Shown here in pieces: positions 7,260-14,611 of a stretch of DNA of 64,000 nt; position 1 is the stretch's first letter, and every line of letters begins with the position of its first letter. The position numbers were made by a program, and so were the translations under genes. The notes beneath the pieces were generated by a model. That model was not told the DNA's origin. It made no database searches and worked only from the letters and a program-made list of their open reading frames with translations. This DNA comes from Veillonella parvula (GTDB lineage Bacteria > Bacillota > Negativicutes > Veillonellales > Veillonellaceae): NCBI RefSeq assembly GCF_902810435.1, contig NZ_LR778174.1:1968501-2032500 (forward strand), written 5' to 3'.

Positions 7260-8216
7260 CTATTGACGCGCTTTGTAACGTGTCCGCAAATCTAAAAACA
7301 TATCTATAACACCAAATATCGCTAGTGCTTGTCCAAAGAAGAAGGCATACACACCAAGCAATATCCACTTCAATTTATTACTCATGCGATAACTACTCAT
7401 TAAGTCTGCTAAAGCTGCAAAGCCATGAACAGAACACATAGAGCTACCGAGGAGTAATACATTAGTACTAATGGCTGTGACCCATGAAGAGTCCATACTA
7501 ATATGTGGAGCACCATATATACCAATAATGCCTAACGCATATAAACCGGCACTCCAGATAGGCATTCTCCACTCTTCAATCGGTAAAAATCGAGGTATGG
7601 AGATATGTAACCGCTTGCCTAACCATATAGATATCTGAATAGTTATATAACTATATGATACGGCAGCTATAGCTACAGCTACAAAAAACGCATCCTTCAA
7701 ACCGGTAGCTAACTTATCTACATTTTTCACAAATAAATCCGCTTGTTCCTGTGTAATATTAGAATTCGTTTGTAATGCTTGGTCAGCAATCATACGAGCT
7801 TGCTCTGTCATCTGTATATCTATCATTGATAAGTCAATACCAGATATATACGCTTGTGCAATGAAAGTTACTAATACAGCAACAAACATAGCAATACTAG
7901 GGAGTAGTAACCGTTTAATCGTTCCCAATGAAAGACGATTACCCTCTCCTACTCCTACACCTACCGCAGCAAATAAGCCAACAGGTATACCATTCCATGG
8001 TCCAAATAAAATTACTGCTAAGAAAGTAGTAACAATAGCTGCCGATATACTATATTTACGGCCCCATTTTGTTCCAATTATGCCAATGGCCGCAGGTGTA
8101 ACAAAAAATGATAAAAAGGCGAAAGCTGGTATATAAACACTGATAGCACTAAGGATAACACCTATAGCACTAACAAAGGCAGTTTCAACCATCGCTCTTG
8201 TATTTGTTTTATTCAT
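7260..8216 (-). CDS. yybS: DUF2232 membrane protein (YybS family)
   Basis: 318 residues with about eight predicted membrane helices; the first (residues 8-40) reads VETAFVSAIGVILSAISVYI. This resembles DUF2232 proteins, which look like ECF-transporter S components and are almost always encoded before gdpP in Firmicutes, as here (19 bp gap). Function unknown. A hydrophilic loop around residues 130-170 (QMTEQARMIADQALQTNSN) separates the two halves. Probably the first gene of the yybS-gdpP-rplI-dnaB run. Confidence 0.85.
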   Translation of the reverse strand: MNKTNTRAMVETAFVSAIGVILSAISVYIPAFAFLSFFVTPAAIGIIGTKWGRKYSISAAIVTTFLAVILFGPWNGIPVGLFAAVGVGVGEGNRLSLGTIKRLLLPSIAMFVAVLVTFIAQAYISGIDLSMIDIQMTEQARMIADQALQTNSNITQEQADLFVKNVDKLATGLKDAFFVAVAIAAVSYSYITIQISIWLGKRLHISIPRFLPIEEWRMPIWSAGLYALGIIGIYGAPHISMDSSWVTAISTNVLLLGSSMCSVHGFAALADLMSSYRMSNKLKWILLGVYAFFFGQALAIFGVIDMFLDLRTRYKARQ

Positions 8217-8367
8217 AAATCACCATTCTTACATAAGAAGATATATTAATTGGTATCTTTTAATTATAACAGTTTAAAAAGGTAACTTCAAATACCCCAT
8301 ATAGTAGACAATTGCGATAGTGGTGCTATTTATAGTACTGGCAATACATATAAATAACGAAAAATAG

Positions 8368-8388
8368 GGAGCCACCTAAAGTAGCTCC
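8368..8388 (-). terminator. rho-independent terminator after the PIN gene
   Basis: On the minus strand GGAGCTACTTTAGGTGGCTCC is followed by CTATTTTTCG. It sits 6 bp past the PIN gene stop. Confidence 0.75.
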
Positions 8389-8393
8389 TCATC

Positions 8394-8873
8394 TCATATT
8401 ACCATATGTAATTGACGCATCATTTCAAATACATTCACATATGAAACATCAAAATGCTCACATATATCCGGTATTTTGACTTTCGTAGTGCTTGGTCCCG
8501 CTAAGGTTTCGTGGGTTACAACCACACCTCTGCGGACACTCGCATAAGCTATAAGCCAAGGATCCGCTTTAGCCAAAAAGCGATGTTTTTCTGCATCCTT
8601 ATATTGTTGATTTGACATCACATATTCAGCGATATCTACATATGAATTTTGTATCTCATCATCATTTGTCGCTTCAGTAAATGTCAAATAATGAGTGTTA
8701 AACCAAGTAGATAACTCATCATTACCGCTCATAATTTCATTTTTAATGTGATCAATAGTTAAAATATTACCTCTACTGCGAGATATCAACTCATTCCAGA
8801 ACGATGGAACAATATCAAACCCATAATAGCGGTTCTTTGCATCTATAAAGGTATTACTATCAAGAACATACAT
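8394..8873 (-). CDS. PIN-domain protein, DUF4411 family
   Basis: 159 residues. It opens MYVLDSNTFIDAKNRYYG, the first acidic motif of PIN ribonucleases. The second acidic cluster follows (TIDHIKNEIMSG), and near residue 105 comes KADPWLIAYASVRRGVVVTHE, the conserved DxWLIA Asp region of DUF4411. These proteins are usually the second gene after an ImmA/IrrE-type protease, as here (11 bp gap). By analogy with other PIN/antitoxin pairs it is probably an RNase toxin. Toxicity is inferred, not shown. Confidence 0.85.
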   Translation of the reverse strand: MYVLDSNTFIDAKNRYYGFDIVPSFWNELISRSRGNILTIDHIKNEIMSGNDELSTWFNTHYLTFTEATNDDEIQNSYVDIAEYVMSNQQYKDAEKHRFLAKADPWLIAYASVRRGVVVTHETLAGPSTTKVKIPDICEHFDVSYVNVFEMMRQLHMVI

Positions 8874-8884
8874 AGTTTTTTCTC

Positions 8885-10000
8885 CTAAAAACTATACTCA
8901 TTCACATATTTTGTAAAAGTACTACCACGTAAGCCTAACAACTCATACGCATCTCGATACGCCAATTCACCTGCTCGAGCAGCTTTGACAACAGTACGAC
9001 TAAAACTTTCACCCAACCGAGCGTGAGCAGTGACATAAAAATCCCCACCACCTCTTGTCTCTCGTTCAGGTAAGCTTTGTAATCGCTGATTAAAACGTTC
9101 CACTAGTCTATGATATTGAATTCGAGTAATATATCCATGCTCTAATGCTATACGATAGATAACATATTCACTCACCTTAAAACGCTTAGCTACGGTCTCA
9201 TAATCCTCCAAATGTTCATTCCACACTGGAATAAATCGAGATTCCGGCACAAGAAATTCACCTGCAAAGCTGTTACAATACGGCTCAGAAGAGCTATCAG
9301 TAACGCCTTCCTCACCTAATAATATATGACAAAACTCATGAATAATCGTAAACAGCCTCCCATGATTCGAATCAGCTCCATTGATAAAAATAACAGGTGC
9401 ATAAGAATCAATTAATGTAAACCCTCTAAACTCATCGACAGATAATTTACGTCTAGTGTTAGAGCCCACAATACCGTTAACAAATACAGTAACACCGATA
9501 GCCTCGATGCGTTCACGTATATATGTAAACGGATCTGCTATACCTATTTGCCAACCAGCCTCTATATTTAATAACGAATAAGCTTGATGCACAAGACTTC
9601 TGCTATCCATGTGTTTAGAAAAACCCCCTACATAAGATAACGCATCTATTCCTAAATTAAGCTTTCGATATTGACTCAACCAATCTTGGCGAATCTGCAT
9701 ATCATAAATAGTATCTCTTAACTCAGGACTATATGGCCTATCAGGGATTTCACCATTTAGTCTTCTAAAATCAGTAATCTCTTTATCCGATAACTGTGGA
9801 GGATTCTTTAAATAAATATACCCTAACGGTACATTGGAAAAAGTAGCTAATGCCTGTATTTGGCAAATTGTCGGATGCACACTGCCGGCAATCCACTCTC
9901 CATACTTTGGAAACCGCTTATAAAAAGCTTCATAACCTTTACCACTATATTTAGGTAACCAGTTTAAAATAGCTCCACTCACCGGAAACCGTCCGGACAT
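8885..10000 (-). CDS. ImmA/IrrE family metallo-endopeptidase (COG2856), likely antitoxin/regulator partner
   Basis: 371 residues. The N-terminal third (residues 1-70) is helical, like the XRE-like region of COG2856 proteins (PKYGEWIAGSVHPTICQIQ). The zinc-protease motif FTIIHEFCHILLGEEG gives HExxH near residue 221, with a downstream ESRFIPVWNE region. The C-terminal part carries a helical RIALEHGYITRIQY segment. Start ATG at 10000 has GGAGGTGAGGG before it. With the PIN/DUF4411 gene immediately downstream this is a recurrent two-gene cassette on mobile islands. The target of the protease is unknown. Confidence 0.85.
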   Translation of the reverse strand: MSGRFPVSGAILNWLPKYSGKGYEAFYKRFPKYGEWIAGSVHPTICQIQALATFSNVPLGYIYLKNPPQLSDKEITDFRRLNGEIPDRPYSPELRDTIYDMQIRQDWLSQYRKLNLGIDALSYVGGFSKHMDSRSLVHQAYSLLNIEAGWQIGIADPFTYIRERIEAIGVTVFVNGIVGSNTRRKLSVDEFRGFTLIDSYAPVIFINGADSNHGRLFTIIHEFCHILLGEEGVTDSSSEPYCNSFAGEFLVPESRFIPVWNEHLEDYETVAKRFKVSEYVIYRIALEHGYITRIQYHRLVERFNQRLQSLPERETRGGGDFYVTAHARLGESFSRTVVKAARAGELAYRDAYELLGLRGSTFTKYVNEYSF

Positions 10001-10108
10001 ACCCTCACCTCCCTTTCCCCTTTATTACTCTTCTACTAAATAATATTCGCTACTTATTATAAAATTCCTACTTTGATTACATTAATTTTACAATCATATA
10101 CCAATGAA

Positions 10109-10152
10109 AAACAAGCAGTTGTTAAATAAATATTTTAACAACTGCTTGTCTT
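10109..10152. terminator. terminator of rnjA
   Basis: Arms ACAAGCAGTTGTTAAA/TTTTAACAACTGCTTGT with a short AT loop, T-rich on both sides. It lies 9 bp past the rnjA stop and separates it from the ImmA-like gene. Confidence 0.85.
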
Positions 10153-10160
10153 AATTATAT

Positions 10161-12329
10161 CTATACGTCTTGAATAATTGGCAAGATCATAGGGCGACGA
10201 CGAGTTTTATCATAGAAGAATTTACCCAATGCGTCACGTACGTTTTGCTTAATGGTTGTCCAGTCTTTGATGCGTTGCATTTCGCAATCTTCAAGAACTT
10301 GTTCTACACGGCGCTCCGCAGCAAGCATGAGTTCTTCTGCGTCACGAACATATACGAAACCACGAGATACGAGGTCTGGACCAGCTACGATAGTACCGGA
10401 AGCTTTATCCATCGCCATAACGACGATAACCATACCTTCTTGTGCCAATTGTTGACGGTCACGGATAACGATATTACCTACGTCACCAACACCAAGGCCA
10501 TCAACGAAGATAGCGCCAGCTTGTACGCGGCCACCTTTGCGACCACCATCTTTATCGAATTCAAAGATTTGACCATTATCACCGATAAGGACTTTCTTAG
10601 GATCTACGCCCATGGCCACACCAAGTTCACCATGACGGCGCAACATGCGATACTCACCATGAACTGGGATAAAGTATTCCGGACGAACAAGGTTAAGCAT
10701 TGTTTTAAGCTCTTCTTGGCTCGCATGACCAGATACGTGAATACCACGGTCTTTACCGTATACCACATTACAACCTAAACGAAGCAAGTTATCGATAGTT
10801 CTACCTACAGCACCTTCGTTGCCTGGAATTGGTGTTGCAGAAATGATAACAGTATCATTCGGTGCCAATTCTACAGTGCGATGGTTGCTTGTTGCCATAC
10901 GGGACAAGCCTGCCATCGGTTCACCTTGAGAACCAGTCGTTAAGATCATGATTTGGTCATCTGTGTAGTTGTGCATTACATCAACGTCGATGATTGTATT
11001 TGGTGGAATATTCAAGTATCCACGCTCTTGGGCAATTTCTGTAACATTGACCATGCTACGGCCCATAACTACAACCTTACGGTTGAACATAACCGCCGCA
11101 TCAATAGCTTGTTGAATACGGGATACGTTAGATGCAAATGTCGCCAAAACAACGCGGCCTTTTGCTTCTCCAACAGCTTGTTTAATCGCAGGGCCTACGG
11201 AACTTTCAGAACCGGTAGTACCTGGTTTTTCTACATTTGTAGAGTCCGACAAGAGCGCTAATACGCCTTTGTTACCTAACTCAGCAAATTTGTGCATATC
11301 CATCAAACGGCCATCAACTGGGGTTTGGTCAATTTTAAAGTCCCCTGTATGAAGAACCGTCCCGATTGGTGTATTAAAGTATACAGCGCAGGAGTCAGGA
11401 ATGGAGTGATTTGTTTGGATGAAACCAACAGTCACTTGACCAATTTGAACTTCATCGCCGGCAGCAATCGTACGCAGACATTTTGGAGATACCTTATGTT
11501 CTTTAAACTTGCCTTCGATTAATCCACAAACGAGGTTTGTTGCGTATACTGGGCAACTAATTTCTTTCATAAGGTATGCCAAAGAACCGATATGATCCTC
11601 ATGACCATGAGTAATTACGACAGCTTTCACGCGGTCTTTATTCTCGATGATATAGCTCATATCAGGAATAACGATATCTACGCCAAGCATATCTTCACTA
11701 GGGAATGCAAGCCCAGAGTCAAGAACGATGATTTCGTCCTCGTATTGGAAGATAGTCATATTTTTACCAATTTCACCAAGACCACCTAATGGAATGATTT
11801 GGAATTTTCCCTTGTTGGCGCCATTTGGTGTGCGACCGACTAATTCCACTTGTTCCTCTTGATTGTTCCAACCTGTAGAACGATTATTTGAGCGGTTATT
11901 ATTGCGGTTCTGACCATTTTGACCATTGCGACCATTATTAGTACGCGTATTACGTGTATTTTCACCACGCGGTGCACGAGTTTGACGAGTTTTGCGTTCT
12001 TGACCTTCACCTTGTTCGGCATTGCGACGTGTATTTGTACGGCGAGTCGTATTAGTACGGCCACCATTCGCACTTGTGCGAGTATTTGTAGAACGGCGTT
12101 GGCGTGTTGCACCTTCACCTTCACCAGCTGTTTGTTGGCGCGTACGACCTTCGCCAGCAGGGCGGCGTGTATTTGTACGGCGACGCGTTTGTTTTTGCTC
12201 GCCTTCAGCCGCAGCTGTAAGAGTAGCAGTTTTTGCTACTGTTGGTTCTGCTTTCACTTGCGCAGTAACCTGATTATCTGTTGTATTCACAGTTCCTCCT
12301 AAAATTTTGTTCATTAATTTATTTAACAT
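10161..12329 (-). CDS. rnjA: ribonuclease J with long basic N-terminal extension
   Basis: RNase J: 5'-to-3' exo- and endoribonuclease of the metallo-beta-lactamase/beta-CASP family. The core begins about residue 170 (KFQIIPLGGLGEIGKNMT). It carries the zinc motif VVITHGHEDHIGSL, later HTGDFKIDQTP, the beta-CASP motif SDSTNVEKPG, GSQGEP and VSGHASQEEL, and ends in the C-terminal dimer domain. Residues about 15-165 are an extension rich in Arg, Thr, Asn, Gly and Gln (TRRRTNTRR, NGRNGQNGQNRNNNR). RNase J is normally about 550 residues; this one is about 722. Start ATG 12329 has AGGTGAG; a GTG at 12341 is the alternative. Confidence 0.93.
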   Translation of the reverse strand: MLNKLMNKILGGTVNTTDNQVTAQVKAEPTVAKTATLTAAAEGEQKQTRRRTNTRRPAGEGRTRQQTAGEGEGATRQRRSTNTRTSANGGRTNTTRRTNTRRNAEQGEGQERKTRQTRAPRGENTRNTRTNNGRNGQNGQNRNNNRSNNRSTGWNNQEEQVELVGRTPNGANKGKFQIIPLGGLGEIGKNMTIFQYEDEIIVLDSGLAFPSEDMLGVDIVIPDMSYIIENKDRVKAVVITHGHEDHIGSLAYLMKEISCPVYATNLVCGLIEGKFKEHKVSPKCLRTIAAGDEVQIGQVTVGFIQTNHSIPDSCAVYFNTPIGTVLHTGDFKIDQTPVDGRLMDMHKFAELGNKGVLALLSDSTNVEKPGTTGSESSVGPAIKQAVGEAKGRVVLATFASNVSRIQQAIDAAVMFNRKVVVMGRSMVNVTEIAQERGYLNIPPNTIIDVDVMHNYTDDQIMILTTGSQGEPMAGLSRMATSNHRTVELAPNDTVIISATPIPGNEGAVGRTIDNLLRLGCNVVYGKDRGIHVSGHASQEELKTMLNLVRPEYFIPVHGEYRMLRRHGELGVAMGVDPKKVLIGDNGQIFEFDKDGGRKGGRVQAGAIFVDGLGVGDVGNIVIRDRQQLAQEGMVIVVMAMDKASGTIVAGPDLVSRGFVYVRDAEELMLAAERRVEQVLEDCEMQRIKDWTTIKQNVRDALGKFFYDKTRRRPMILPIIQDV

Positions 12330-12724: not shown

Positions 12725-13801
12725 TTATTTATCATCTGGCATATTTTTATAAAAGCCTTCAATATGCCACTCACCATGTTCTTCGACGAGAGATATGTAG
12801 CGTGTCATGTGCGCAGCCTCAACCGCGCCATCTCCGGGTTTAGTGACTTGCAGATCCGCTTCGTAAATAATGCGTTTCATGCCATTTATACGACTGATAC
12901 GACTCGTGCCTAAGGACCCGACAACCACCTTCGGCGCCGACATCATAGCTTCCATCCATTTCTGCTTTTCTACGGGATTTGTCTTAGCCTGATCGGTAAC
13001 ATAGGTGAAAGCCTTATCATAGTTCTTTTCATTGACGGCGTCAAAATAACCGTGAACAACATCCCGTGCAGCTTCATCACTGCCTTGACCGACGATGATA
13101 TTCGTAAACCATCCGCCCGGATCCAGTTCATTTTCCGGTCCCATATAACGAGACGAAACACTGCATACGCAGATAGCACTCACCAGCAATGCAACGAGAA
13201 TTCGAGTAGTGAAAGCGCTGCTCGTAGGCGATACTTTCATAATAGATGCCAACCGTTTGCCGATAATGATGTTCCTCAACGCCTCACCATATTGATTAGC
13301 CTTCGGTTCACCTTTCTTACACAGTAGAACAAATAGAATAATCGGTCCGATGAAAGGAATTAAGATTAAAAACAGATGATCACTACTTTTACCGGTATCA
13401 TGAAGGCGACGGATACATAGAGAGCCCAACGGAATCAGCGAGACAAGACCGATGATTGTCAGTAACATCCATGCCAACAGGATTAAATAAATACCTGTAT
13501 GAAGCACCACCATAAGCCCATAAGAAAGGGCCAGAATTCCAGCGATAACTAAAATCCACATCAAAAAGAACCGCAAAAATTCCCCTCTGGACGCACGGCC
13601 ATCTGAATTCATAAATTTGCGGCCCACCACATAGAGAAATGTATCCTTGTAACTCAACTGATAATGCGCCAGCGGATAGATAATATCCCCTTCCGGTGCG
13701 ATGCTCTCAACCTCCACCGCAGTCGTATACTGCCCGCAATGCGGACAGAACATGGCAGCCTCGTCACAATACTGACGGCAGGATTCACAATATCGTTTCA
13801 T
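12725..13801 (-). CDS. zinc-ribbon DUF805 membrane protein
   Basis: 358 residues. An N-terminal zinc ribbon (CESCRQYC... FCPHCGQY, four Cys) is followed by a DUF805 domain (residues about 48-180) with several membrane helices. DUF805 hallmarks are GRASRGEFLRFFL and LCIRRLHDTGKS. Another membrane segment follows (about 196-216), then a C-terminal NTF2-like soluble domain (AARDVVHGYFDAVNEKNYDK... WHIEGFYKN) of the DUF4878 kind, probably outside the membrane. Function unknown. It is preceded 12 bp upstream by the UDG-like gene, suggesting one transcript. Confidence 0.8.
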   Translation of the reverse strand: MKRYCESCRQYCDEAAMFCPHCGQYTTAVEVESIAPEGDIIYPLAHYQLSYKDTFLYVVGRKFMNSDGRASRGEFLRFFLMWILVIAGILALSYGLMVVLHTGIYLILLAWMLLTIIGLVSLIPLGSLCIRRLHDTGKSSDHLFLILIPFIGPIILFVLLCKKGEPKANQYGEALRNIIIGKRLASIMKVSPTSSAFTTRILVALLVSAICVCSVSSRYMGPENELDPGGWFTNIIVGQGSDEAARDVVHGYFDAVNEKNYDKAFTYVTDQAKTNPVEKQKWMEAMMSAPKVVVGSLGTSRISRINGMKRIIYEADLQVTKPGDGAVEAAHMTRYISLVEEHGEWHIEGFYKNMPDDK

Positions 13802-13813
13802 ATGTAATACCTT

Positions 13814-14611
13814 CTATCTCAAAACTCTCTCTACAGCTTCAGCAAAACCTTCACGGTATAAATTAGCCCCACCGTTAGCCGGATGTCTAAGACCGATGGC
13901 TGAAAGGCCGAATCGCCCCATCGTGTCCGCCGATTTTTGACCGACAGCGAGCACGAGTGGCTCCGGTCCACCTAATTCGGTGTGCAATGCCAACAGTCTT
14001 TTCGTATATTCCCAACCCAGCTGCTGCTCCGACTCAGTCGGCGTCCGATTAGTGAGCGGTTCGTCCGCCTTATGAGGATGAAAGGGGAATATATTCCAGA
14101 ACAGTGCATCGTATGGATCAATTTCCTGTTCGATAATGGCACTCCATACTACTGTATCCGTAGGTTCATTGAATCCCTGTTCCCGTTGGGTCCGTTTCAG
14201 CATGGAACTCACAGGGGAGCTAGTTCTTTGTAATGTAACAGGCGTTATTTGATGCGCCCGAATTGTTTTATGCTTATTCAACAACATGCGCTCACAGGTA
14301 ATGGCAATGCCCGAAAAGCGCCCGCCTTGATATCCGACAGCCTCCGCCACCACAAAGATCTTGGAGCGTCCCAACCGCGGCAGCAAATACGCCATCAAAT
14401 TGTTACGACGCACCTGAGCCGCATCAAAATCAGGCCGAACAATTTCGAGGTCAGGATTCACCTCGCCCCATGGATTGTGAACAAGCTCGCCCCTATATTG
14501 ACCGAGCCAGTCTATAAACTGCTGTACTTTTGCAATCTGATTCGTACCAAACGAAGTCATATATTCATCAAAAGACAGCGTTTTCTCTTCCTCTGATGTA
14601 AATAAGGACAT
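13814..14611 (-). CDS. uracil-DNA glycosylase family protein
   Basis: 265 residues. The motif order fits the UDG superfamily: KIFVVAEAVGYQGGRFSGIA at residues about 85-105, where family 4-like enzymes have GEAPG; FWNIFPFHPH in the middle; and LRHPANGGANLYREG near the C-terminus. Here the first motif reads AEAVG rather than GEAPG, so the specificity, or even the activity, may differ. No Cys cluster for a 4Fe-4S centre is visible. ATG at 14611 has TTGGGGGAGAG before it. Probable DNA-repair or sanitation role. Confidence 0.75.
   Translation of the reverse strand: MSLFTSEEEKTLSFDEYMTSFGTNQIAKVQQFIDWLGQYRGELVHNPWGEVNPDLEIVRPDFDAAQVRRNNLMAYLLPRLGRSKIFVVAEAVGYQGGRFSGIAITCERMLLNKHKTIRAHQITPVTLQRTSSPVSSMLKRTQREQGFNEPTDTVVWSAIIEQEIDPYDALFWNIFPFHPHKADEPLTNRTPTESEQQLGWEYTKRLLALHTELGGPEPLVLAVGQKSADTMGRFGLSAIGLRHPANGGANLYREGFAEAVERVLR

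Follow-up and report, generated by a model that had tools for sequence, protein, structure and literature searches.

What does a gene for an ImmA/IrrE-like metallopeptidase do when it lies directly ahead of a gene for a PIN-type ribonuclease, and is the peptidase the switch that sets the PIN protein free? This question is raised by a two-gene unit of Veillonella parvula, from a genus of common human commensals, within the 64,000-nucleotide stretch of DNA analysed here (contig NZ_LR778174.1, positions 1,968,501 to 2,032,500), hereafter the window. The features of the locus are listed below in window coordinates.

8885..10000, minus strand: antitoxin gene, vapB52-like, with an M78/IrrE metallopeptidase domain, 371 aa (ORF list, Pfam, 9VZY match, model)
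8394..8873, minus strand: toxin gene, vapC52-like PIN ribonuclease, DUF4411, 159 aa (ORF, Pfam, 9VZY match, model)
8874..8884, minus strand: 11-bp gap between antitoxin stop and toxin start (ORF coordinates)
8368..8388, minus strand: terminator-like hairpin 3' of the toxin gene (terminator scan)
10111..10149, no strand assigned: terminator-like inverted repeat in the interval between the RNase J gene and the pair (terminator and repeat scans)
8338..10144, no strand assigned: extent of the cassette; the closest relative without it (G008) has about 52 bp at this place (genome comparison)
Antitoxin protein, by residue: HTH-like N-terminal domain, about 5-66; linker with the FR motif (F78, R79); peptidase with HEFCH, the HExxH motif (221-225), and E239; helical (HTH-type) sub-domain; helical C-terminal domain, about 321-368

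The arrangement originally predicted, a protease and a PIN gene 11 bp apart, was found as two open reading frames on the minus strand, and the terminators expected on both sides correspond to terminator-like hairpins at 8388-8368 and 10111-10149. The latter, an inverted repeat scored on the plus strand and bordered on each side by short runs of T or A, separates the pair from its upstream neighbour, the RNase J gene. The interval 8200-10300 contains four terminator-like sites, where shuffled sequence gives a mean of 1.0 (sd 1.0); two of the sites fall within the two genes. Promoter prediction around the pair returned 10 promoter-like sites against 10.1 expected, which is chance level. The seven nearest flanking genes were identified by Pfam scan as dnaB, rplI, gdpP, the DUF2232 gene yybS, the RNase J gene, a gene for a DUF805 protein and one gene with no Pfam match. 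A genomic island around the Veillonella pair was considered and rejected, as the cassette of about 1.8 kb alone is inserted between the core genes yybS and RNase J. No tRNA gene was found near the cassette or within the 64-kb window, and the search for direct repeats or att-like sequences at the cassette ends gave just short two-copy repeats, which often occur by chance.

Profile searches bore out the protein families proposed for the pair. The large protein matches Peptidase_M78 (PF06114, E 3.2e-17) and the small one DUF4411 (PF14367, E 4.6e-49), while in NCBIfam the antitoxin has a single weak match below the cut-off and the PIN protein has none. Against PDB sequences, the antitoxin matches 9VZY chain A over residues 32-344 (E 6.3e-19) and the toxin matches 9VZY chain D over residues 2-148 (E 1.2e-8), with 9VZZ matching as well. 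These entries are the VapBC52 complex (Rv2515c-Rv2514c) of M. tuberculosis, described in June 2026 (PMC13273310). According to that paper, the large protein is the antitoxin, which forms a 1:2 complex with the toxin through its N-terminal domain and caps an active site of the toxin with its C-terminal domain; on encountering single-stranded DNA (ssDNA), VapB52 cuts off its own N-terminal domain, and a HEXXH mutant does not. The same source identifies VapC52 as a tRNase that cleaves tRNAs, and describes residue C229 of VapB52 as coordinating zinc in the resting state, a "cysteine switch" that it also attributes to CapP. In its phage assays, overexpression of VapC52 shielded M. smegmatis against phage D29 and co-expression of the antitoxin gave no protection; since protection was seen with toxin overexpression and lost with the antitoxin present, native defence is unproven even for VapBC52.

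The logic of such pairs, originally called not well characterised, turns out to have a literature. Makarova 2009 lists gene pairs of PIN and COG2856 (M78-type) families and proposes a protease-controlled, three-component toxin circuit; the TASmania study reports Rv2514c as toxic alone and rescued by Rv2515c; and PMC13273310 supplies the structure and the ssDNA trigger. The literature drawn on besides PMC13273310 comprises PMC2701414, PMC6504116, PMC8790059, PMC6098607, PMC10904395 and PMC10440598. Among the matches listed for Veillonella toxin-antitoxin reports (the best 12 of 54, by titles and abstract starts), none concerned a DUF4411/M78 pair. The original idea is thus a good one that is now largely in print, and the Veillonella pair is most likely a relative of the published VapBC52, which makes the find largely ordinary.

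We consider it likely that the two genes form a type II toxin-antitoxin module, chromosomal and of the VapBC52 kind (DUF4411 toxin, M78 antitoxin), in which ssDNA-triggered self-cleavage of the antitoxin frees the PIN ribonuclease. By this proposal, the large protein would bind the PIN toxin and block its active site with the C-terminal helical domain, the N-terminal HTH-like domain acting as a second hold on the toxin. A build-up of ssDNA, through DNA damage or phage replication, would then lead the M78 domain to cut its own linker near the FR motif, and loss of the N-terminal domain would free the toxin and stop growth, acting as abortive infection. The evidence obtained here is that each protein is homologous to a different chain of a single solved complex, together with the conserved catalytic residues, the model folds, the gene linkage and a patchy distribution that bears marks of horizontal exchange. 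Toxicity, neutralisation, a tRNA target, the ssDNA trigger, self-cleavage and phage protection would hold by analogy with VapBC52, and by the same analogy the PIN protein is most likely a ribonuclease, specifically a tRNase. The suggested toxin-antitoxin or phage-defence logic, with release of the PIN protein on a signal, gains partial support in that it is reported for the homologous VapBC52, whose complex both window proteins match. Release of the PIN protein by the protease agrees with that report; cutting of the PIN protein does not, VapB52 cutting itself and doubling as antitoxin.

The structural models are in line with this assignment. In a pairwise alignment, H221, H225 and E239 of the window antitoxin, together with F78 and R79, align with H216, H220, E245, F75 and R76 of VapB52 (residues matched by spacing, the chain count in the alignment being the paper's number plus one), so that the third zinc ligand and the FR linker motif are kept. 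The antitoxin model (mean pLDDT 87.4) places helices within residues 9-62, then the peptidase core and, at the C-terminus, four helices within 321-368, and is poorly ordered at about 71-90, the block 71-80 that holds the FR motif being the least ordered. The best PDB matches of its middle part are CapP (Z 10.2, 156 residues, rmsd 3.1), PrpR-type regulators and IrrE, and PprI with ssDNA also matches (Z 9.6, 154 residues, rmsd 4.5). The N-terminal helical domain of the original prediction was confirmed and refined to an XRE/Cro-type HTH fold in the model, with matches to BswR (Z 8.1, 64 residues, rmsd 2.1), ImmR and C.Csp231I (Z 7.7), a Z of about 8 being weak by itself for small helical domains. 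These fold neighbours are close to those that PMC13273310 names for VapB52, and in the model the predicted C-terminal helices complete an HTH-M78-CTD antitoxin layout homologous to it. A Foldseek search of the PDB with the full-length antitoxin model gave no full-length match (one match at E 1e-3, query TM-score 0.28), and 9VZY is not among the fold-search rows for either model, which is uninformative because the fold library ends at 2026-04-08. For the toxin, the model (pLDDT 95.8) matches PIN proteins and VapC toxins (best Z 12.8 and 12.7), and the PIN acidic residues D5, E46, D104 and E122 are all present. In a 40-row toxin alignment, where the window is counted twice, as itself and as its duplicate L001, D5 is conserved in 40, E46 in 39, D104 in 38 (the other two have Glu) and E122 in 40.

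The neighbourhood survey proposed originally was run, and the order of the pair was found to be kept on chromosomes, plasmids and viral contigs. In a phylum sample, DUF4411 exceeded the cut-off in 28 of 299 genomes. At the DUF4411 genome loci (L001-L004, L007-L035), a related antitoxin gene adjoins on the same strand in 26 of 33, a count that includes loci with a gene in pieces (L004, L010, L022, L027 and L028); the seven with no adjoining antitoxin-toxin pair are three contig ends (L024, L025, L032), L030, where the antitoxin ORF alone was recovered, the sub-cutoff L034 and L035, and L023. All 12 plasmid loci fetched by DUF4411, chosen among 47 plasmid records with a match, carry the pair, including L058, where the locus is unannotated and the ORFs are present. 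For plasmid and phage loci fetched by an antitoxin match, DUF4411 adjoins in four of seven and is absent by profile from L071, L072 and L073; at L072, an unnamed gene overlaps the antitoxin end in its place. The pair is found within the set distance at 73 of 80 viral-contig loci, and three more overlap through over-long open frames (76/80); no DUF4411 was found at the other four (L080, L090, L093, L151), of which L080 and L090 end soon after the antitoxin. The phage collection yielded two records for the toxin and three for the antitoxin. The expectation that such pairs recur on genomic islands is therefore upheld in part: relatives do occur on plasmids and on viral or prophage-like contigs, but the window copy is a cassette between core genes. 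On an E. coli megaplasmid (L074), the pair has an HTH regulator gene on one side and phage recombination genes (Gam, Bet) on the other, a location that suggests prophage cargo. One Acetobacter copy sits inside a type I restriction locus.

A departure from VapB52 concerns the cysteine switch. The position of C229 in VapB52 is Thr234 in the window antitoxin, whose loop from the second His to the Glu is also shorter by 11 residues; the latch described for activation of VapB52 is therefore lacking. The cysteine switch was not treated as family-defining, since few relatives have it. We surveyed 81 representatives below 85% identity drawn from 123 sequences; both sets count the window but not its duplicate L001, and for some of the 81, such as L071-L073, no neighbouring DUF4411 gene was found. 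The switch position holds Cys in 7 of the 81, Ser in 44, Phe in 14, Tyr in 5 and another residue in 10, with one gap; counting a Cys anywhere in the loop raises the number to 11. With the Cys in 7 of 81 representatives, the window counted in the set, the published latch cannot apply generally. Loop Cys was present in 6 of the 36 DUF4411-led rows (12 from plasmids and 24 from genomes, the window's own among the latter), all six from genomes. Three changes on the tree are needed to account for the seven Cys rows; six of these rows lie within one starred seven-row set, and the remaining one, L072, has a long branch whose placement is unsure. By comparison, Arg79 is conserved in 81 of 81, His221 in 80, Glu222 in 79, His225 in 81 and Glu239 in 81. 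The FR motif was considered as proof of the cut site and rejected: its Arg is also kept in two members with a broken HExxH (L018 and L019) and in L073, where no DUF4411 neighbour was found, so that conservation of Arg79 may be structural rather than a mark of the cut site.

The activation latch of the one studied member is thus absent from most of its sampled relatives. We put forward, tentatively and as somewhat short of an even chance in its entirety, that the window antitoxin belongs to a cysteine-less majority of the sampled DUF4411-type M78 antitoxins which need another latch, whose trigger may differ from the published ssDNA/cysteine-switch model, and some of which have dropped proteolysis altogether. 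Candidate latches in such members would be, for example, the linker, bound toxin, metal supply, or a switch position occupied by a hydroxyl or aromatic residue; for the window protein, the proposed mechanism assumes that occlusion by the linker or in the toxin complex would keep the protease off and would be relieved on ssDNA binding. Activation by ssDNA with no cysteine switch is plausible by analogy with PprI of Deinococcus, which is described as ssDNA-activated, with ssDNA near the cleavage site, in a text that does not contain the word cysteine. No survey of the missing cysteine was found in passages of PMC13273310 or among the matches listed, mainly from outside the subscription journals, on cysteine-switch peptidases (the best 10 of 36), on CapP/CapH/IrrE/ssDNA (the best 10 of 1,113) and on DUF4411 PIN proteins; Supplementary Fig. 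S3D of PMC13273310 may bear on the matter.

Members with a broken protease motif raise the alternative that the pair is a toxin-antitoxin module in which the protease is not the trigger, the antitoxin being a stable binder from which other proteases, or dilution, free the toxin. In two genomes of one genus, L018 (HQYLH) and L019 (YQFAH), the catalytic Glu is lost although the antitoxin ORF and the DUF4411 ORF next to it are both full length, so that these antitoxins are possibly protease-dead; both group with the window protein in one broad clade (15 rows, 98/97 support; 6 rows, 95/74), and the HEXXH mutant of VapB52 is likewise reported in PMC13273310 to retain toxin binding. On the other side, HExxH is present in 34 of the 36 DUF4411-led rows and in 79 of the 81 representatives, part of which were found via an HExxH pattern, and an unused protease would hardly be kept to this extent. 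Both losses belong to the DUF4411-led genome set; the search for viral contigs used two conserved peptide patterns, and because one of them spans HExxH those contigs are no gauge of how often the motif is lost. We regard this alternative as unlikely, though the best placed of those considered.

It is more doubtful still that the large protein mainly cuts a separate repressor, in the style of ImmA/ImmR, IrrE/DdrO or CapP/CapH, with the PIN protein as an unbound downstream output. The structural proximity of the M78 model to CapP, PrpR-type regulators, IrrE and PprI speaks for such a reading, as does the three-component circuit proposed in Makarova 2009. Against it, the cassette shows no sign of a third gene between the flanking hairpins, and the homologous VapBC52 forms a direct 1:2 complex. 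We retain the VapBC52-like module, with its self-cleaving antitoxin, as the preferred reading.

Within Veillonella, four of the 14 genomes have DUF4411, counting the one from which the window comes, and the same four carry the antitoxin, in one case in pieces; the tally is of one genome per species and has no bearing on strains. All four cassettes lie beside yybS, before the RNase J gene; in the ten genomes with no cassette, a single short locus contains both yybS and RNase J sequence. Of these ten, G008 is the closest: its flanks are 96-97% identical, and the roughly 52 bp in place of the cassette carry another hairpin-like repeat. Compared with V. denticariosi, the cassette DNA is 94% identical and dnaB, rplI, gdpP and RNase J 79-83%, whereas compared with V. 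rogosae the cassette is 69-72% and the same genes 87-91% identical (dnaB in part only). This mismatch indicates a separate history of the cassette, as expected for exchange between strains, and the sequences thus carry signs suggestive of horizontal exchange within the genus. The inference is tempered by the two genes past RNase J (window 12725-14611, the DUF805 protein and the protein with no Pfam match), whose DNA shows a similar pattern, with 89-93% identity to V. denticariosi and 68-70% to V. rogosae.

Decay affects both genes of one sister copy (G010, L004): the antitoxin has frame breaks and an internal deletion, and the toxin lacks a start codon and has an early stop. This fits a toxin that is intolerable when its antitoxin is gone, as a single case and no proof. 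That the window pair is itself a decayed or neutral remnant with no present function, as this damaged copy might suggest, is the least probable reading of all, given that its ORFs are full length with catalytic residues and that the V. denticariosi copy is intact, with proteins 94-95% identical. The adjoining yybS gene, for a DUF2232 membrane protein (window 7260-8216), varies strikingly within the genus: it is 94-98% identical to three of the 13 other genomes, 62% to one and 30-33% to nine, and it is divergent even in G009, where the flanks are 93-96% identical; this suggests that the yybS core was replaced by recombination.

If the pair works like VapBC52, Veillonella too would have an antitoxin that responds to ssDNA by self-cleavage and thereby releases a tRNase, and the question it raises is what holds the cysteine-less proteases in check and whether ssDNA still activates them.

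Several known systems resemble the pair in part. RosmerTA (RmrTA), a group of toxin-antitoxin systems for phage defence, is described as having an antitoxin with a protease domain, often with a small HTH, and an adjoining toxin gene; its toxin (one member described) is membrane-active, unlike other families, whereas the window toxin is a DUF4411 PIN protein. With PADLOC, 13 RmrA profiles match the antitoxin (E 1.9e-9 to 1e-3), mostly in the protease region, where CapP matches too (E 1.9e-8). CapP-CapH of CBASS and PprI/IrrE-DdrO of Deinococcus share an M78-type peptidase with an HTH and ssDNA-activated cleavage, but they cut a separate repressor to control transcription and have no PIN toxin partner in the described systems; no CapH-type repressor or CBASS genes were found in the cassette or among the seven nearest flanking genes. 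Canonical VapBC modules share the PIN-fold toxin, VapC structures being among the best matches of the window toxin, but canonical VapB is small (8-13 kDa, according to PMC13273310), whereas the window antitoxin is large and multidomain. The closest system is VapBC52 itself, in which the same two protein families occur in the same order, both with significant sequence matches, and share a similar domain layout in the model, with the HExxH, the third Glu ligand, the FR motif and the PIN acidic residues kept. Besides the cysteine-switch residue and the shorter loop, the window pair differs from it in that the disordered 23-residue N-terminal stretch of VapB52 has no counterpart in the 371-aa ORF, and in its setting, a core-gene junction in a genus of Bacillota.
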